34,725 nucleotides of DNA from assembly GCA_030682385.1 (NCBI GenBank), contig JAUXOG010000071.1, positions 1 through 34,725 on the forward strand. The letters run 5' to 3'. This document shows positions 30,189 through 34,725 of this stretch, one piece after another. The position numbers were made by a program, and so were the translations under genes. Position 1 is the stretch's first letter. Each line of letters begins with the position of its first letter. The notes under the pieces are model-generated. The model saw only the letters and a list, made by a program, of their open reading frames with translations, did not search any database and was not told the DNA's origin. The stretch is from Bacteroidota bacterium. GTDB taxonomy: Bacteria; Bacteroidota; Ignavibacteria; UBA10030; BY39.

Positions 30189-31031
30189 ATGAAAAAACAA
30201 TTGTCTCAATTAGTTTCGATGGTTCTAATTATCTTATTAATTGCCTCAGTCGCAGTGGCGCAGGAGAGTTTTAAATTAGAATACAAATTCGAAAAAGGGA
30301 AAACCTTTCGTTACAAGGATATTTCATCGGGAAAGATGACGCAGGAAATGATGGGGAAAGAAATGAAGATGAGCAGCGAGGGGGAAAAGGTGATAAAAAT
30401 TATTGTAGATGATGTTTCTAAAACCGGAGATATTACAATTACGACTTCTACTGATTCGATGAAGGTTTTCAGCAGCACCCCGATGGGCGATACAACGATT
30501 TATCCGACAGAATTATTGAATAAACGAACTGTTGTAACTTTCTCAAATAAAGGGAAAATACTTTTAGAACAGGTAATTGATTCTATTAAGCAGACCGGCA
30601 GAATGGCAAGTATGGCTCCGACTGAACCGGTTAAATTTCATATTCTACCGGAAGATGCGAAAGCTATAGGAACGATTTGGAATTCATTAACCGTTGATAC
30701 AGTCGATCGTATGGGCGGAAAAGTTTTAACTACTTCCGACATCGAATATACACTCGTTGGAAAAGAGAAAAAACTTGGTTACGATTGCTTAAAAATTTCT
30801 TTTAAGGGAAAAACAGAAATCGAAGGGAAGGCAAGTGTTCAAGGTATGGAATTGATGATTGAAGGTTCGGGAAAAATTAACGGCAGTTTCTATTTTGATC
30901 CGAAATTGGGATTAGTCGTTTTTGAAGATACGGAAGTCGATTCTGAAATGACAATGGCAACCACAGGTGAACAAGCTATGATAATCCCGATTACACAATT
31001 TGTTAAGAATACACGCACATTGGTGAAGTAA
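30189..31031 (+). CDS. Exported DUF6263-like protein
   Basis: This 280-residue protein has a clear signal peptide (MKKQLSQLVSMVLIILLIAS, cleaved after VAVA). The mature part begins FKLEYKFEKGKTFRYKD and is a beta-rich sequence with several DTT/DSM turns. It resembles the DUF6263 family of Bacteroidota, whose function is not known; the assignment rests on the N-terminal pattern. ATG 30189 is chosen because AAAAGGAAAAG directly precedes it and it begins the signal peptide. It is the last gene of the plus-strand run, 28 bases after the M28 gene. Confidence 0.75.
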   Translation: MKKQLSQLVSMVLIILLIASVAVAQESFKLEYKFEKGKTFRYKDISSGKMTQEMMGKEMKMSSEGEKVIKIIVDDVSKTGDITITTSTDSMKVFSSTPMGDTTIYPTELLNKRTVVTFSNKGKILLEQVIDSIKQTGRMASMAPTEPVKFHILPEDAKAIGTIWNSLTVDTVDRMGGKVLTTSDIEYTLVGKEKKLGYDCLKISFKGKTEIEGKASVQGMELMIEGSGKINGSFYFDPKLGLVVFEDTEVDSEMTMATTGEQAMIIPITQFVKNTRTLVK

Positions 31032-31298: not shown

Positions 31299-31317
31299 CC
31301 TGCCTGTAGCAGACAGG
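31299..31317. repeat. Palindromic repeat, imperfect copy
   Basis: CCTGCCTGTAGCAGACAGG pairs as two short stems with one mismatch. A perfect relative, CCTGCCTGCAGCAGGCAGG, lies at 34233-34251, where it truncates a transposase. The two differ at two positions. Confidence 0.65.
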
Positions 31318-31389: not shown

Positions 31390-31428
31390 AAGTGTTTCTG
31401 ACTATAAAGTCAGAAACACTTAAATTTT
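31390..31428. terminator. Bidirectional intrinsic terminator
   Basis: A perfect 14-bp stem (AAGTGTTTCTGACT at 31390-31403, AGTCAGAAACACTT at 31408-31421) with loop ATAA is flanked by an A-rich run on the left and a T-rich run on the right. It can stop both the plus-strand run ending with the DUF6263-like gene and the minus-strand Met-rich gene. Confidence 0.9.
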
Positions 31429-31443: not shown

Positions 31444-31869
31444 CTATGCTTGTTCTTTCACAAACATTGCAACTGTAATTCCGAAAATCACATGCCCCAT
31501 AATGCTGCCCATCATCATTAACAACATGCTGCCTTCCATTGGTGGCATTGGCATCATCATTCCCATTATTGCCATCATTATTTGAGCAAAGATAAATACT
31601 GCCATTCCGAAGATTGCTCCTTTCAAAATATTGTTACTGATTTTTTTCAACACATTAAGAAAGAAGAAAGCATAAGCCATAGCGAAAATTATTCCTATCA
31701 TAAAGTGCATCATCCAACCTACTACGATTGGAAAACCCATCATCATTGAGAGCATTGCTGGTGGGTTCATTTTTGGCATTCCCAGCATGGGTGCAATCAT
31801 CATTACCATTGTCATTACGGCTGTGCCGATGATGCCACCAATTAGTGCTGTTTGAATTTTATTTGTCAT
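31444..31869 (-). CDS. Methionine-rich small membrane protein
   Basis: The 141-residue protein has about four hydrophobic helices and 31 methionines (22%), many in runs such as SMMMG, GMMMPMPPM and LLMMMG. Conserved-looking features are GGIIGTAVMTMVM at the N-terminus, a WMMHF motif in the second helix and GHVIFG in the last. I do not recognise a firm family; it may belong to the DUF6789-like membrane proteins. Methionine clusters in membrane proteins can bind Cu(I) or Ag(I), which would fit the cysteine-histidine-rich exported protein encoded just upstream, but metal binding is an inference. Confidence 0.75.
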   Translation of the reverse strand: MTNKIQTALIGGIIGTAVMTMVMMIAPMLGMPKMNPPAMLSMMMGFPIVVGWMMHFMIGIIFAMAYAFFFLNVLKKISNNILKGAIFGMAVFIFAQIMMAIMGMMMPMPPMEGSMLLMMMGSIMGHVIFGITVAMFVKEQA

Positions 31870-31898
31870 GATATTTTTTGTTTAATGGTTTTAAAAAT

Positions 31899-31926
31899 TC
31901 AGGAGTTGGCGAAAGCCAACTCCTGA
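31899..31926 (-). terminator. Hairpin with GAAA loop between the two metal-module genes
   Basis: TCAGGAGTTGGC and GCCAACTCCTGA form a perfect 12-bp stem with a stable GAAA tetraloop. On the minus strand it is followed by AATTTTTAAAA. It lies four bases after the stop of the HxCxxxC protein gene and about 30 bases before the start of the Met-rich gene, so it could terminate or attenuate transcription between them. Confidence 0.75.
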
Positions 31927-31930
31927 TTAA

Positions 31931-32266
31931 TTACATTTTCTTTTTGCATGCTTCCCCGCAAGTGTGTCCTTTCTCACCGTGTGCATACATGTGATTTCCG
32001 TTTTTACAAGCATCGGTGCATACATGGTCTTTCATTTCCATTTTCTCCGAATTGGTGTTTGCAGTTTTACATGCTTCGGTGCAGGTGTGTCCTTTTTCAC
32101 CATGTGCATACACGCAATGCCCTGAAGTGTGGCATGCATCTGTGCATGTGTGGGTTTTCATTTCCATATTTTGTTTTTCTTTCTTCTCTTTTTTAGAAGA
32201 TATTTGAGCATTTGCACTGATTGAAATGCCCAAAATGATTACGAATGCAAGAATTAATTGTTTCAT
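31931..32266 (-). CDS. Exported Cys/His-rich repeat protein with four HxCxxxC motifs
   Basis: The 111-residue protein has a signal peptide (1-20, ending SANA). The mature part holds nine Cys and nine His. Four HxCxxxC motifs occur (H39-C41-C45, H60-C62-C66, H81-C83-C87, H101-C103-C107), arranged as two 41-42-residue repeats that each include the spacer AHGEKG. The spacing and His/Cys content strongly suggest metal binding in the periplasm or outside, most likely of a soft metal such as copper, zinc or mercury. I do not know a named family. It lies in a minus-strand set with an ECF sigma factor and a MerC-like gene, which suggests metal-stress control. Confidence 0.8.
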   Translation of the reverse strand: MKQLILAFVIILGISISANAQISSKKEKKEKQNMEMKTHTCTDACHTSGHCVYAHGEKGHTCTEACKTANTNSEKMEMKDHVCTDACKNGNHMYAHGEKGHTCGEACKKKM

Positions 32267-32387
32267 TGTTTTTGATTTTTAAATTGTTTATAAAATTTTA
32301 ATTACAAACAAACAGTCGTTGCAAATTTTGAAACCTGACAAGCGGATAAAAAAATATTTTTGTGAAATAGAGAAAGACGTGTATGGC

Positions 32388-32849
32388 TTAATGCTGAACT
32401 AATAGTTTGCCTTGCGTTATGGGCAAATTTCCATTTGTGGAAATTGTGAAAAGATAAATTCCTGATTCAAGCAAAGTGGAATTGAGTTGAAAGAAATCTT
32501 CTTTGGTGGTAGTAGTGAAAACCGAAATTCCACTCATGTTATAAAGTGTGAGTTGATGTTCCTGCTTTATGCTGTTGTCAAAATAAATTTTGGCTTCGGT
32601 GCTTACAGTGTTTGGTCGTATTTGGTAGCCGCTGTTTTCTATATCAATAATTTCAACTGAAACAATTTGAGAGTAACCTTGATTGCCCAATTCAAGACGG
32701 TAATAATTGATTTGGTTTTTGATTGGATGTTGGTCGGTGAAATCATAATTTATCGGTTCAGATGAACTTCCGCAAACTCCAGATATATTTCCAATTTGTG
32801 AAAACTGGATGCTGTCGGTTGAACGGTAAATTTGTATTCCGTTGCAAGT
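32388..32849 (-). pseudogene. C-terminal fragment of a T9SS-sorted surface protein
   Basis: From about 32849 downwards the frame reads CNGIQIYRSTDSIQFSQIGN, then a fibronectin-like INYYRLELGNQGYSQ segment, and ends in a type IX secretion sorting domain (LTLYNMSGISVF ... LLESGIYLFTISTNG ... GKLLVQH). Such C-terminal domains send proteins of Bacteroidota through the type IX system. There is no start or signal peptide of its own. The upstream codons of this frame are the MerC gene read in the wrong frame, so it is a fragment joined to merC by rearrangement. About 150 residues remain. Confidence 0.75.
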
Positions 32850-33085
32850 GCAATAATTAACGGGAAAATATTTTTGTGTTGGCGGTAAGAAATATAAGTT
32901 CCTATCAGAGAAATCAAAACAAGTGCCTGAAAAACATATTCTGTCCATCCACCGAAAAGCTCTGCTGAACCCAAACCAAATGAAGCCAATAAGAACCCAA
33001 GCAATGGGAAACAACACGGAGTTGCCAATGCAGCAAGGAACAAACCTATTGTTCCAATTTTATCAAGATTTGCTGAGAGTTTCAT
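32750..33085 (-). CDS. MerC-like transporter, 3' end replaced
   Basis: The first 80 or so of the 111 residues match the MerC domain: DKIGTIGLFLAALATPCCFP with the metal-binding Cys pair C24-C25, and further hydrophobic helices (about 10-40, 48-65). MerC proteins carry mercuric ions, and relatives in Bacteroidota often sit beside ECF sigma factors without other mer genes. From about residue 83 the homology stops and the frame runs through the antisigma-unrelated T9SS fragment in another frame, giving a 29-residue tail that is not native. ATG 33085 directly abuts the stop of the preceding gene. The last helices of the family are therefore missing and function is doubtful. Confidence 0.7.
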   Translation of the reverse strand: MKLSANLDKIGTIGLFLAALATPCCFPLLGFLLASFGLGSAELFGGWTEYVFQALVLISLIGTYISYRQHKNIFPLIIALATEYKFTVQPTASSFHKLEIYLEFAEVHLNR

Positions 33086-33349
33086 TTACAATTTTGAAAT
33101 TATTTGTTGTTTCAATTCGTTATTGGTGATTAGAGGAACTTGCGTTTCGTCTATTTTATGAATGTGTCTGTTAAGCAATTCATCCAAAATTTTACTTTGC
33201 TTCTGATATGCTTTGCAGCCATCGCACATCGCGGTGTGCATGTGCAACATCACATTTTCTTTCATGGAAAGATTTACTACCGATTTCTTGTCTATCAACT
33301 CGCTTGCCTTTTTGCAAGAGAGCATCAATATGTTCATTAACTTTTTCAT
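33086..33349 (-). CDS. Small zinc-finger anti-sigma-like protein
   Basis: The 87-residue protein begins MKKLMNILMLSCKKASELID, with C12 in the usual first position, and has the zinc-finger motif H38-x3-C42-x2-C45 (HTAMCDGC) of the ZAS anti-sigma class. The rest is a charged helix with no transmembrane segment. It lies four bases after the ECF sigma gene and abuts merC, so it probably binds and inhibits that sigma factor and releases it on oxidation or metal binding. The family match is by motif and context. Confidence 0.75.
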   Translation of the reverse strand: MKKLMNILMLSCKKASELIDKKSVVNLSMKENVMLHMHTAMCDGCKAYQKQSKILDELLNRHIHKIDETQVPLITNNELKQQIISKL

Positions 33350-33353
33350 TGTT

Positions 33354-33929
33354 CTATTTTTTGAACCAATTTAATTCCAAACATTTTCTCAACTGCAACT
33401 TAGCCCTGTGAAGTATCTGCCAAAAATTAGTATTGGTAATCCCCAATTCCTGACAAATGTGTTCACCATTTTTTTCTTCCATAAATTTTAACCGGATTGC
33501 AGAAAACCAATTGACGGGAAGTTTTTTCATGCAGTGGTGCAGGGTTTTCTGAAATTCGTCATTGTCCAAAAGGTGTTCAGTGTCGTCTGCCCACTGTTGC
33601 GGTCTTTGGTCGGGTTTCCACTGGTCGTTACTGTCAAAGAGGGTTTCAAAAATGGAGTTGTCGTCAACCATTGGTCTGCGGTAACTTCTGCGGTAATGGT
33701 CGTTTATTTTGTTGTTGAGAATGGCGAACAACCATGTCTTTGGGCTACTGTCACCTTTGAACTTGTCAAAGGACTGAACTGCTGCCAAAAATGCTTCCTG
33801 AACTAAATCTTCTGCTGTTTCCTTACTTGATGTCTTATGTATAGCCCATGAATACAGGCTGTCGGAATACAACTCCACCCAACACTTGATTGTGGCAGTC
33901 GGATTTTTGGTATCCATTACATTTTCCAT
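33354..33929 (-). CDS. ECF-subfamily RNA polymerase sigma factor
   Basis: The 191-residue protein has sigma region 2 (about 15-85, with the ETAEDLVQEAFLAAVQSFDK and SSPKTWLFAILNNKINDHYRR segments) and region 4 (about 130-188, with a helix-turn-helix in GEHICQELGITNTNFWQILHRAKLQLRKCL). It resembles the TIGR02943-type ECF sigma factors of Bacteroidota. It heads a minus-strand set with a zinc-finger anti-sigma-like gene and a MerC-like gene. A second ATG (33917, giving MDTKNP) is an alternative start. A TAnnTTTG promoter element lies very close to the first ATG. Confidence 0.92.
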   Translation of the reverse strand: MENVMDTKNPTATIKCWVELYSDSLYSWAIHKTSSKETAEDLVQEAFLAAVQSFDKFKGDSSPKTWLFAILNNKINDHYRRSYRRPMVDDNSIFETLFDSNDQWKPDQRPQQWADDTEHLLDNDEFQKTLHHCMKKLPVNWFSAIRLKFMEEKNGEHICQELGITNTNFWQILHRAKLQLRKCLELNWFKK

Positions 33930-34227
33930 TTGGCAAAGGTAGATTTTAGAGTTGTCAATTTGTTACGAAACAGTTTTTAGTGCGTTTGGCAAAATTAAAT
34001 GTGGTGTTTTTGTGTCGGCTTGCGTGTCGGCTGTCTTTCACCTTGTCTGTCGATATTTTGGTGGTCTCTCGGTCTTTTTACAATGACCGGTATCGTCCTG
34101 CAAAAATACGCAATACTTTTGTGAACCTATAATTCTCATTCGCCGTGAACAAAAGTATTGAGCGAGGCTTTTTGTCATTGGTTTATACCAGCGTCGTATT
34201 TTTGCTTGAAACGTTACACGTTTCGAG
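33930..34227. other. Non-coding stretch with nested inverted repeats
   Basis: No gene is supported here. The main feature is a nested palindrome. The outer arms GCAAAAATACG (34100-34110) and CGTATTTTTGC (34195-34205) enclose the exact inner pair CAATACTTTTGT (34111-34122) and ACAAAAGTATTG (34149-34160). Next to it, GAAACGT-TAC-ACGTTTC (34208-34224) forms a 7-bp hairpin. The block could be a repeat element or recombination site. Confidence 0.55.
33934..33941 (-). promoter_or_regulatory. Bacteroidota-type -7 element (TAnnTTTG)
   Basis: On the minus strand TACCTTTG matches the -7 consensus TAnnTTTG of Bacteroidota sigma-A promoters. It ends five bases before the first ATG of the sigma gene, so the transcript would be leaderless or start at the second ATG. 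A convincing -33 TTTG at the right distance was not found. Confidence 0.3.
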
Positions 34228-34491
34228 TTAGACCTGCCTGCAGCAGGCAGGCATCTGTTCATCGCTCAATCCAAAATATTCTTGCAATATCAGAATCTTA
34301 AACATCAATACATATTCGTATGGTGGACGACCCCCTGGACCTTTGGCTTCTTTGCGCATAGCCTCGTTCAGAATTGGAACGAAAAGATTCCAATCAATTG
34401 CTTCGTTTATTTTCTCTAATGGATCACCTAATCTGCTGATCCGCTCTAATTTGTTTTGTTCATCAAAGAACCCAGGGTTATTCTTTCTCAT
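34228..34491 (-). pseudogene. IS5-family transposase, N-terminal fragment
   Basis: The frame begins MRKNNPGFFDEQNKLERISR and continues with the DUF772 domain typical of IS5-family transposases (GRPPYEYVLMFKILILQEYF, GLSDEQ). Homology ends at about 34255. The last eight codons are a palindromic repeat read through, and stop at 34228. The DDE catalytic domain is missing, so it cannot transpose. Confidence 0.85.
34233..34251. repeat. Perfect palindromic repeat at the IS break point
   Basis: CCTGCCTG-CAG-CAGGCAGG is an exact 8-bp-stem hairpin located precisely where the transposase homology stops. An imperfect copy lies at 31299-31317. Confidence 0.8.
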
Positions 34492-34585
34492 CGCTCTTCC
34501 TCATAGTGTTTTCTGTTATCTTTTTTCTTACTTGTAATGTAATCAAATATTCTCACACTTTAAAAGTTAGTTTTTGGAAGTGCCC
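34252..34585 (-). mobile_element. IS5-like element remnant with one intact end
   Basis: The remnant runs from the transposase break (about 34255) to the terminal sequence GTTAGTTTTTGGAAGTGCCC (34566-34585). The adjacent CTAA (34585-34588) fits the YTAR targets of the IS5 subgroup. The element interrupts an RluA-family gene. The other end is not visible in the window. Confidence 0.7.
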
Positions 34586-34725
34586 TAAAGTTAAAAAATC
34601 GAACTCTTCAATAACTTCATACTCGGTCATCGCATACTTGCCGACGTTGGCTACGGCAACTTTTTTTCTGTCGGTTTTACTTCGTGCAAGACTCGCTTCG
34701 ATAAATCCTTTTTTCTTCTTTCCAA
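34553..34725 (-). pseudogene. RluA-family pseudouridine synthase, interrupted by IS
   Basis: Reading leftwards from the window edge, the frame gives GKKKKGFIEASLARSKTDRK, then KVAVANVGKYAMTEYEVIEEF and DFLTL. This is the segment after the catalytic site of RluA/RluD-type 23S rRNA pseudouridine synthases, just before the usual GRTHQIRVH motif. At 34585 the sequence enters the IS end and the frame stops at 34553. The 5' part lies outside the window, and the 3' part was not found to the left of the IS remnant, so the gene is broken. Confidence 0.8.

Follow-up and report, generated by a model that had tools for sequence, protein, structure and literature searches.

The zinc-type (ZAS) anti-sigma factor RsrA lets go of its sigma factor upon thiol oxidation. 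In Neisseria, sigma-E and its anti-sigma MseR control msrAB (PMC2893595, PMC3240639), and the sigma-E promoters follow the consensus GTMAGBWTT-N12/13-CGTCTAAH (PMC2893595). In Haemophilus influenzae, the pair RpoE2/HrsE controls msrAB and the hvf/DoxX genes, and rpoE2 expression rises with HOCl and H2O2 (PMC7907618). HvfA binds copper (PMC13419390). Here, we analysed a 34,725-nt stretch of DNA from a Bacteroidota bacterium (contig JAUXOG010000071.1; the window), which at positions 31444–33929 carries a cassette with genes for an extracytoplasmic function (ECF) sigma factor, a ZAS anti-sigma, an exported protein with HxCxxxC motifs (HCC) and the membrane protein DUF6789. Judged from their sequences, these four genes are a conserved unit. 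We consider it likely, with a probability of about 0.72, that the cassette is an accessory cassette of the envelope thiol/methionine-oxidation type known from sigma-E/MseR and RpoE2/HrsE, with HCC as its effector. An envelope oxidation response is indicated by the promoter, by the anti-sigma motif, and by the MsrA, MsrB, DsbD, peroxiredoxin and HvfA genes that share the promoter in relatives.

The gene grouping is not a matter of chance, because the sigma, anti-sigma, HCC and DUF6789 genes also lie side by side in a Paludibacter metagenome-assembled genome (MAG; L009), where the sigma factor is 60% identical to that of the window. The initial annotation had proposed a search for its gene order in other Bacteroidota; the order was recovered for these four genes but not for MerC, which is missing in L009. 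Sigma, anti-sigma and HCC also occur with a cytochrome P460-like gene in L021, while L030 has the order DUF6789, sigma, anti-sigma, P460-like, HCC. When 84,980 species genomes were scanned once, 23 HCC loci turned up, every one in Bacteroidota. Among them, L012 has the order MerTP, GDCCVxC, a Crp-like gene, T9SS-tail (a type IX secretion system C-terminal domain), DUF6789, HCC; in L013, L016 and L023, a second, different ECF sigma gene precedes HCC at a distance of one to three genes, and genes of the DsbD type lie downstream; and five Chitinophagaceae-like loci have HCC flanked by a phosphatase-like gene and icd, without a metal gene. According to the initial annotation, homologues of the last two genes that lack sigma or MerC genes and show no metal response would refute its reading. 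The first half applies, as most HCC homologues have neither alongside, yet many of them retain the ECF promoter.

The regulators resemble the described pairs. Members of this sigma family (E < 1e-30) are present in 55 of 395 sampled genomes of the phylum. Leaving aside the window's own copy, 29 homologues were fetched, and each of these sigma genes is followed by an anti-sigma gene of the same type. The anti-sigma of the window lacks a transmembrane (TM) segment and has the motif C12-X25-H38-X3-C42-X2-C45, whose four residues are invariant in a four-sequence alignment; its score of 48.3 bits against the NCBIfam model antisigmaE is slightly under the cutoff of 50. The C-X25-H-X3-C-X2-C spacing is the same in MseR and RsrA (PMC2893595). 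The locus shares with Neisseria sigma-E/MseR a sigma gene followed by a small soluble ZAS anti-sigma, the identical Cys/His spacing and a near-matching promoter, and differs in having HCC as target; Msr is among the targets in the window's relatives. With Haemophilus RpoE2/HrsE, it shares a sigma factor and a cytoplasmic ZAS anti-sigma that would govern an exported Cys-rich peptide and, in the relatives, Msr.

The promoter also links the regulators to HCC. The site 47 nt before HCC reads TGTCAGGTTT-N12-CGACT. Five sigma genes have TGTAAGG-N15-CGACTAA in common, and from sigma-gene promoters alone we derived a query motif of 12 positions. Besides the window, nine loci have this motif, at at least 9/12 positions, 15–48 nt before HCC. 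At a threshold of at least 10/12 it is found in 9/23 HCC upstream regions against a background of 0.3% (binomial p ~3e-17), and the independent Neisseria sigma-E consensus, which has the same -35 element and the same spacing, matches at least 14/17 positions in 7/23 regions against 0.6% (p ~5e-11), p-values that overstate independence since the HCC loci are partly near relatives. The window site GTCAGGTTT-N12-CGACTGTT itself matches the Neisseria consensus at 14/17 positions and deviates at the -10 element. The motif also precedes DUF6789 in L030 and L067, the P460-like gene in L030, four HvfA genes, two DUF417-MsrA pairs, and the sigma gene itself in the relatives L030, L049, L051–L053 and L058.

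In six HCC-bearing genomes, 18 of the 27 motif sites lie within 50 nt of the start of an open reading frame (ORF), versus 22% for random sites, and five of the 27 are coding coincidences in sigma genes. The genes behind the sites in these genomes and in a five-genome scan include those for MsrA, MsrB, DsbD_N, peroxiredoxin, thioredoxin, YHS, DUF1223 and HCC. In the 3.38-Mb host genome of the window, TGTMAGG-N15-CGWC has three matches, two of which lie within genes; the single intergenic one precedes HCC, which suggests that the regulon comprises only one locus there. A motif match within the sigma coding sequence (C-x-E-L-x-I-T) recurs at many loci and was not counted as a promoter. This coding match, C-x-E-L-x-I-T-x-S, is located towards the 3' end of the sigma gene and ~80 nt ahead of the start of the anti-sigma gene (L036 1960, L038 1599, window 33455). 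It is probably a coding coincidence, and possibly an internal promoter.

The genes that follow sigma and anti-sigma in related loci point in the same direction; one representative per type was run against Pfam and NCBIfam, and the others were read from sequence. They encode DUF417 and MsrA (L055, L059), Lys/Met-rich exported proteins and peroxiredoxin (L044, L051–L053), rhodanese-like proteins (L033, L034), a DsbD-like membrane protein (L041) and a YHS-like protein (L058). In L036, L038, L039 and L043, HvfA-type KCGExKCG precursors follow instead, so that the copper-binding oxazolin precursor HvfA takes the place of HCC in a setting with the same promoter, sigma and anti-sigma; a gene for an MNIO-type maturase (HvfB) was seen downstream of HvfA in the first three. 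These four loci are Bacteroidota oxazolin-type clusters under this sigma family, each HvfA with a TGTAAGG-N15-CGTC promoter. The short Lys/Met-rich exported proteins of L044, L051, L052 and L053 (KMDKMKKKDMK...) share sigma and promoter and are a further candidate effector that has not been described and may act as a methionine oxidant sink.

HCC itself is a real and conserved protein family that had not been described, whereas its regulation is of an already known kind. This bears out part of the initial annotation, which had proposed that a regulator pair and an exported Cys/His-rich protein form an undescribed unit, and which had correctly counted nine Cys and nine His in a protein with an export signal. 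The 23-sequence alignment gives the consensus H-x-C-x3-C-x(4-6)-H-x-Y-x-H-G-E-x-G-H-x-C-x3-C, with four Cys and four His invariant in each unit and one to three units per protein. A signal peptide precedes the units, except in L014 and L015, which have an apparent lipoprotein signal instead. The family had no match in Pfam, NCBIfam or the PDB, nor in plasmids, phages and viral contigs, and literature searches for the core 'HGEKGH' and for DUF6789 returned nothing relevant. Of the 395 genomes in the phylum sample, no more than two others gave clear matches to a full-length query, which points to a sparse or diverged family. The HCC gene of genome G426 equals that of L029 (a Bacteroidetes MAG). 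Relatives such as G426 are listed in the phylum of the window but in a different class, which suggests that the host falls outside the class of the HCC-rich Chitinophagaceae. The homologue at L003 1168–1737 has a long Lys/Glu/Met repeat (EKKGEMM...) between the signal peptide and the Cys/His units. An exported cytochrome P460-like protein repeatedly adjoins HCC (L008 6358–6876, L021 6298–6825, L030 5190–5705).

DUF6789 was predicted by AlphaFold2 as a confident four-TM bundle (pLDDT 92.5) with two invariant His (H55, H126), and a fold search in the PDB gave nothing below E = 5. Elsewhere it is found near thioredoxin-, Crp-, CcdA- and rhodanese-like genes, which fit redox rather than metal-specific work. 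The initial annotation had stressed its Met content. The 31 Met are indeed present, but a share of 22% is peculiar to this copy, as homologues have 5–15%.

If the cassette works like the sigma-E/MseR and RpoE2/HrsE type, the soluble zinc-binding anti-sigma would hold the ECF sigma factor. By analogy with RsrA, MseR and HrsE, thiol oxidation or a thiophilic agent at the Cys/zinc site of the anti-sigma would free the sigma, which would then transcribe the HCC gene from TGTCAGG-N15-CGACT. The exported HCC would most likely serve as a thiol/soft-metal buffer in the envelope, protecting the proteins there against Cu(I)-like ions as well as oxidation, and DUF6789 would take part in the same response. 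Tentatively, one may go further and suppose that HCC is an unmodified, directly encoded envelope buffer, and that across Bacteroidota it stands in for the oxazolin/bufferin peptides by taking up Cu(I) and oxidants in a regulon of the sigma-E/MseR type, with DUF6789 as the membrane partner of HCC; we consider this the less probable outcome. The main reading would assign to an undescribed protein family of Bacteroidota a regulator and a promoter, together with a role that can be tested. The results also indicate that the oxidant regulon of Neisseria and Haemophilus, including its promoter sequence, is widespread in Bacteroidota, with HvfA and HCC as interchangeable exported Cys-rich effectors, and the pattern TGTMAGK-N15-CGWC makes it searchable in any Bacteroidota genome.

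Several observations weigh against this interpretation, in addition to the relatedness of the HCC loci mentioned above. The window has CGACTGTT rather than CGTCTAA as -10 element. The promoter motif that would mark autoregulation was not found upstream of the sigma gene in the window or in L009, and the cassette is therefore taken to work like the sigma-E/MseR type rather than to be a full member of it. A clear motif is missing in 13/23 HCC homologues, and no msr gene of the host genome has the exact site. Genome-wide motif totals were not, or only modestly, above those of a reversed control pattern and alone show no regulon; the case for the promoter rests on site position and gene function. 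The window sigma scored below the cutoffs of NCBIfam's specific ECF models, including the best ones, which concerns the question of the ECF13 group. An AlphaFold2 model of HCC built from the 23 sequences had low confidence (pLDDT 57) and was set aside. Furthermore, sigma-E of N. meningitidis is not induced by H2O2 or diamide (PMC2893595).

The initial annotation had read the locus as a candidate metal-stress module with MerC as a member. Such a dedicated system for soft-metal capture in the envelope, in which the sigma factor would sense Cu, Ag, Zn or Hg, MerC would import the metal, and HCC and DUF6789 would bind it, would suit the eight Cys/His that are kept in every unit of HCC, from which soft-metal binding by HCC is likely and with which Cu(I) or Zn(II) would be compatible. 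It would also suit the copper binding of HvfA, the positional equivalent of HCC (PMC13419390), the MerTP and GDCCVxC genes ~2 kb upstream of the T9SS-tail, DUF6789 and HCC genes in L012, and the metal-efflux setting of the intact MerC relatives described below. The MerC gene of the window, however, appears from its reading frame to be a broken relic outside the conserved unit. The ORF of 111 aa scored 41.3 bits against PF03203 (cutoff 27.6) and covers only MerC positions 1–72 of 108. Its codons 1–80 are 55–60% identical to L062 and L063, and homology is absent beyond codon 80. The intact relatives are MerC-GDCCVxC proteins of 202–204 aa that sit in Zn/Cd/Cu efflux operons, adjoining CzcB-like and P-type ATPase genes in L062 and a P-type ATPase and a multicopper-oxidase-like gene in L063 (names read from sequence). 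From 32849 downward, a different frame encodes the C-terminal ~151 residues of a T9SS-tail protein, through which the merC ORF runs out of frame. This remnant, which was not in the gene list of the initial annotation, is 50% identical over 151 aa to an intact gene in L032 (204 aa, with signal peptide) that comes directly after a sigma and an anti-sigma gene of this type. Because MerC homology ends at codon 80 and the T9SS-tail frame follows, 'MerC' here is a deletion scar, although the junction may be an assembly chimera. Likeness to mer operons is confined to codons 1–80 of the third ORF, and none of merA, merR, merT and merP was seen in the cassette. MerC failed the test for a complete domain and was rejected as a working part; none of the other scanned HCC loci contains it either, and the relatives' genes with the same promoter serve mostly thiol/Met repair. 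We regard dedicated metal capture as improbable and not supported; soft-metal binding would be at most one arm of an envelope oxidation response.

The shared position, promoter, signal peptide and repeated Cys units of HCC and HvfA could alternatively mean that HCC is a ribosomally synthesized and post-translationally modified peptide (RiPP) precursor, with an MNIO enzyme encoded at an unlinked locus acting on its Cys. Bufferins and oxazolins (PMC12452194, PMC13419390) are likewise exported Cys-rich products behind an ECF sigma. In contrast to HvfA of Haemophilus, a KCGExKCG RiPP precursor requiring HvfBC, HCC consists of unrelated units that retain four His each, and carries neither KCGExKCG nor another bufferin signature (Pfam, NCBIfam). 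A phmmer search with an HvfB-like protein found no MNIO maturase in the window or at the 23 HCC loci, and we consider a modified HCC very unlikely. Hardly any weight remains for a pile-up of unrelated genes next to a broken insertion sequence (IS). It would account for the broken transposase, the broken MerC and the flanking palindromes at this locus, and also for the sister genome G001, where the gene adjoining the cassette (30192–31031) has an 82% identical counterpart and the cassette is absent downstream (L097). It is contradicted by the four-gene order kept in L009, the shared promoter and the independent linkage of sigma and HCC elsewhere.

All five minus-strand ORFs claimed initially are present according to the ORF check, Pfam and NCBIfam (Table 1). 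They are not one simple transcription unit, because HCC has its own ECF promoter and is followed by a terminator.

Table 1. Features of the cassette and its border, with positions in the window.
Feature	Position	Strand	Evidence
ECF sigma factor, 191 aa	33354..33929	(-)	Pfam Sigma70_r2, 60.5 bits
Soluble zinc-type (ZAS) anti-sigma, 87 aa, without TM segment	33086..33349	(-)	sequence reading, NCBIfam, alignment
merC fragment, codons 1-80 of a MerC-GDCCVxC gene	32846..33085	(-)	Pfam, identity to L062/L063
3' remnant of T9SS-tail (Por_Secre_tail) gene; 5' end and signal peptide gone	32388..32849	(-)	TIGR04183, 35.2 bits
Candidate ECF promoter TGTCAGG-N15-CGACT	32314..32340	(-)	motif match 47 nt before HCC start codon
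HCC (HxCxxxC) protein, 111 aa, signal peptide and two Cys/His units	31931..32266	(-)	23-sequence alignment
HCC unit 1, aa 39-66	32069..32152	(-)	
HCC unit 2, aa 81-107	31946..32026	(-)	
Intrinsic terminator between HCC and DUF6789	31899..31926	(-)	12-pair stem and T run
DUF6789 four-TM membrane protein, 141 aa, 31 Met	31444..31869	(-)	PF20587, 41.8 bits (cutoff 27.1)
Terminator 3' of DUF6789, usable on both strands	31390..31421	(-)	
Broken IS5/IS1182-type transposase at cassette border	34228..34491	(-)	PF05598, 34.4 bits

The composition of the cassette gave no sign of foreign DNA, with a GC content of 37.3% compared to 38.7 +/- 2.2% for the window. Fragments of an IS5/IS1182-type transposase lie upstream of the sigma gene at 34038–34723. 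Two near-identical 19-bp palindromes, CCTGYCTGCTRCAGGCAGG, bracket the cassette at 31299–31317 and 34233–34251; none was found elsewhere in the window, in shuffled sequences or in the relatives' loci, and the second ends the reading frame of the broken transposase.

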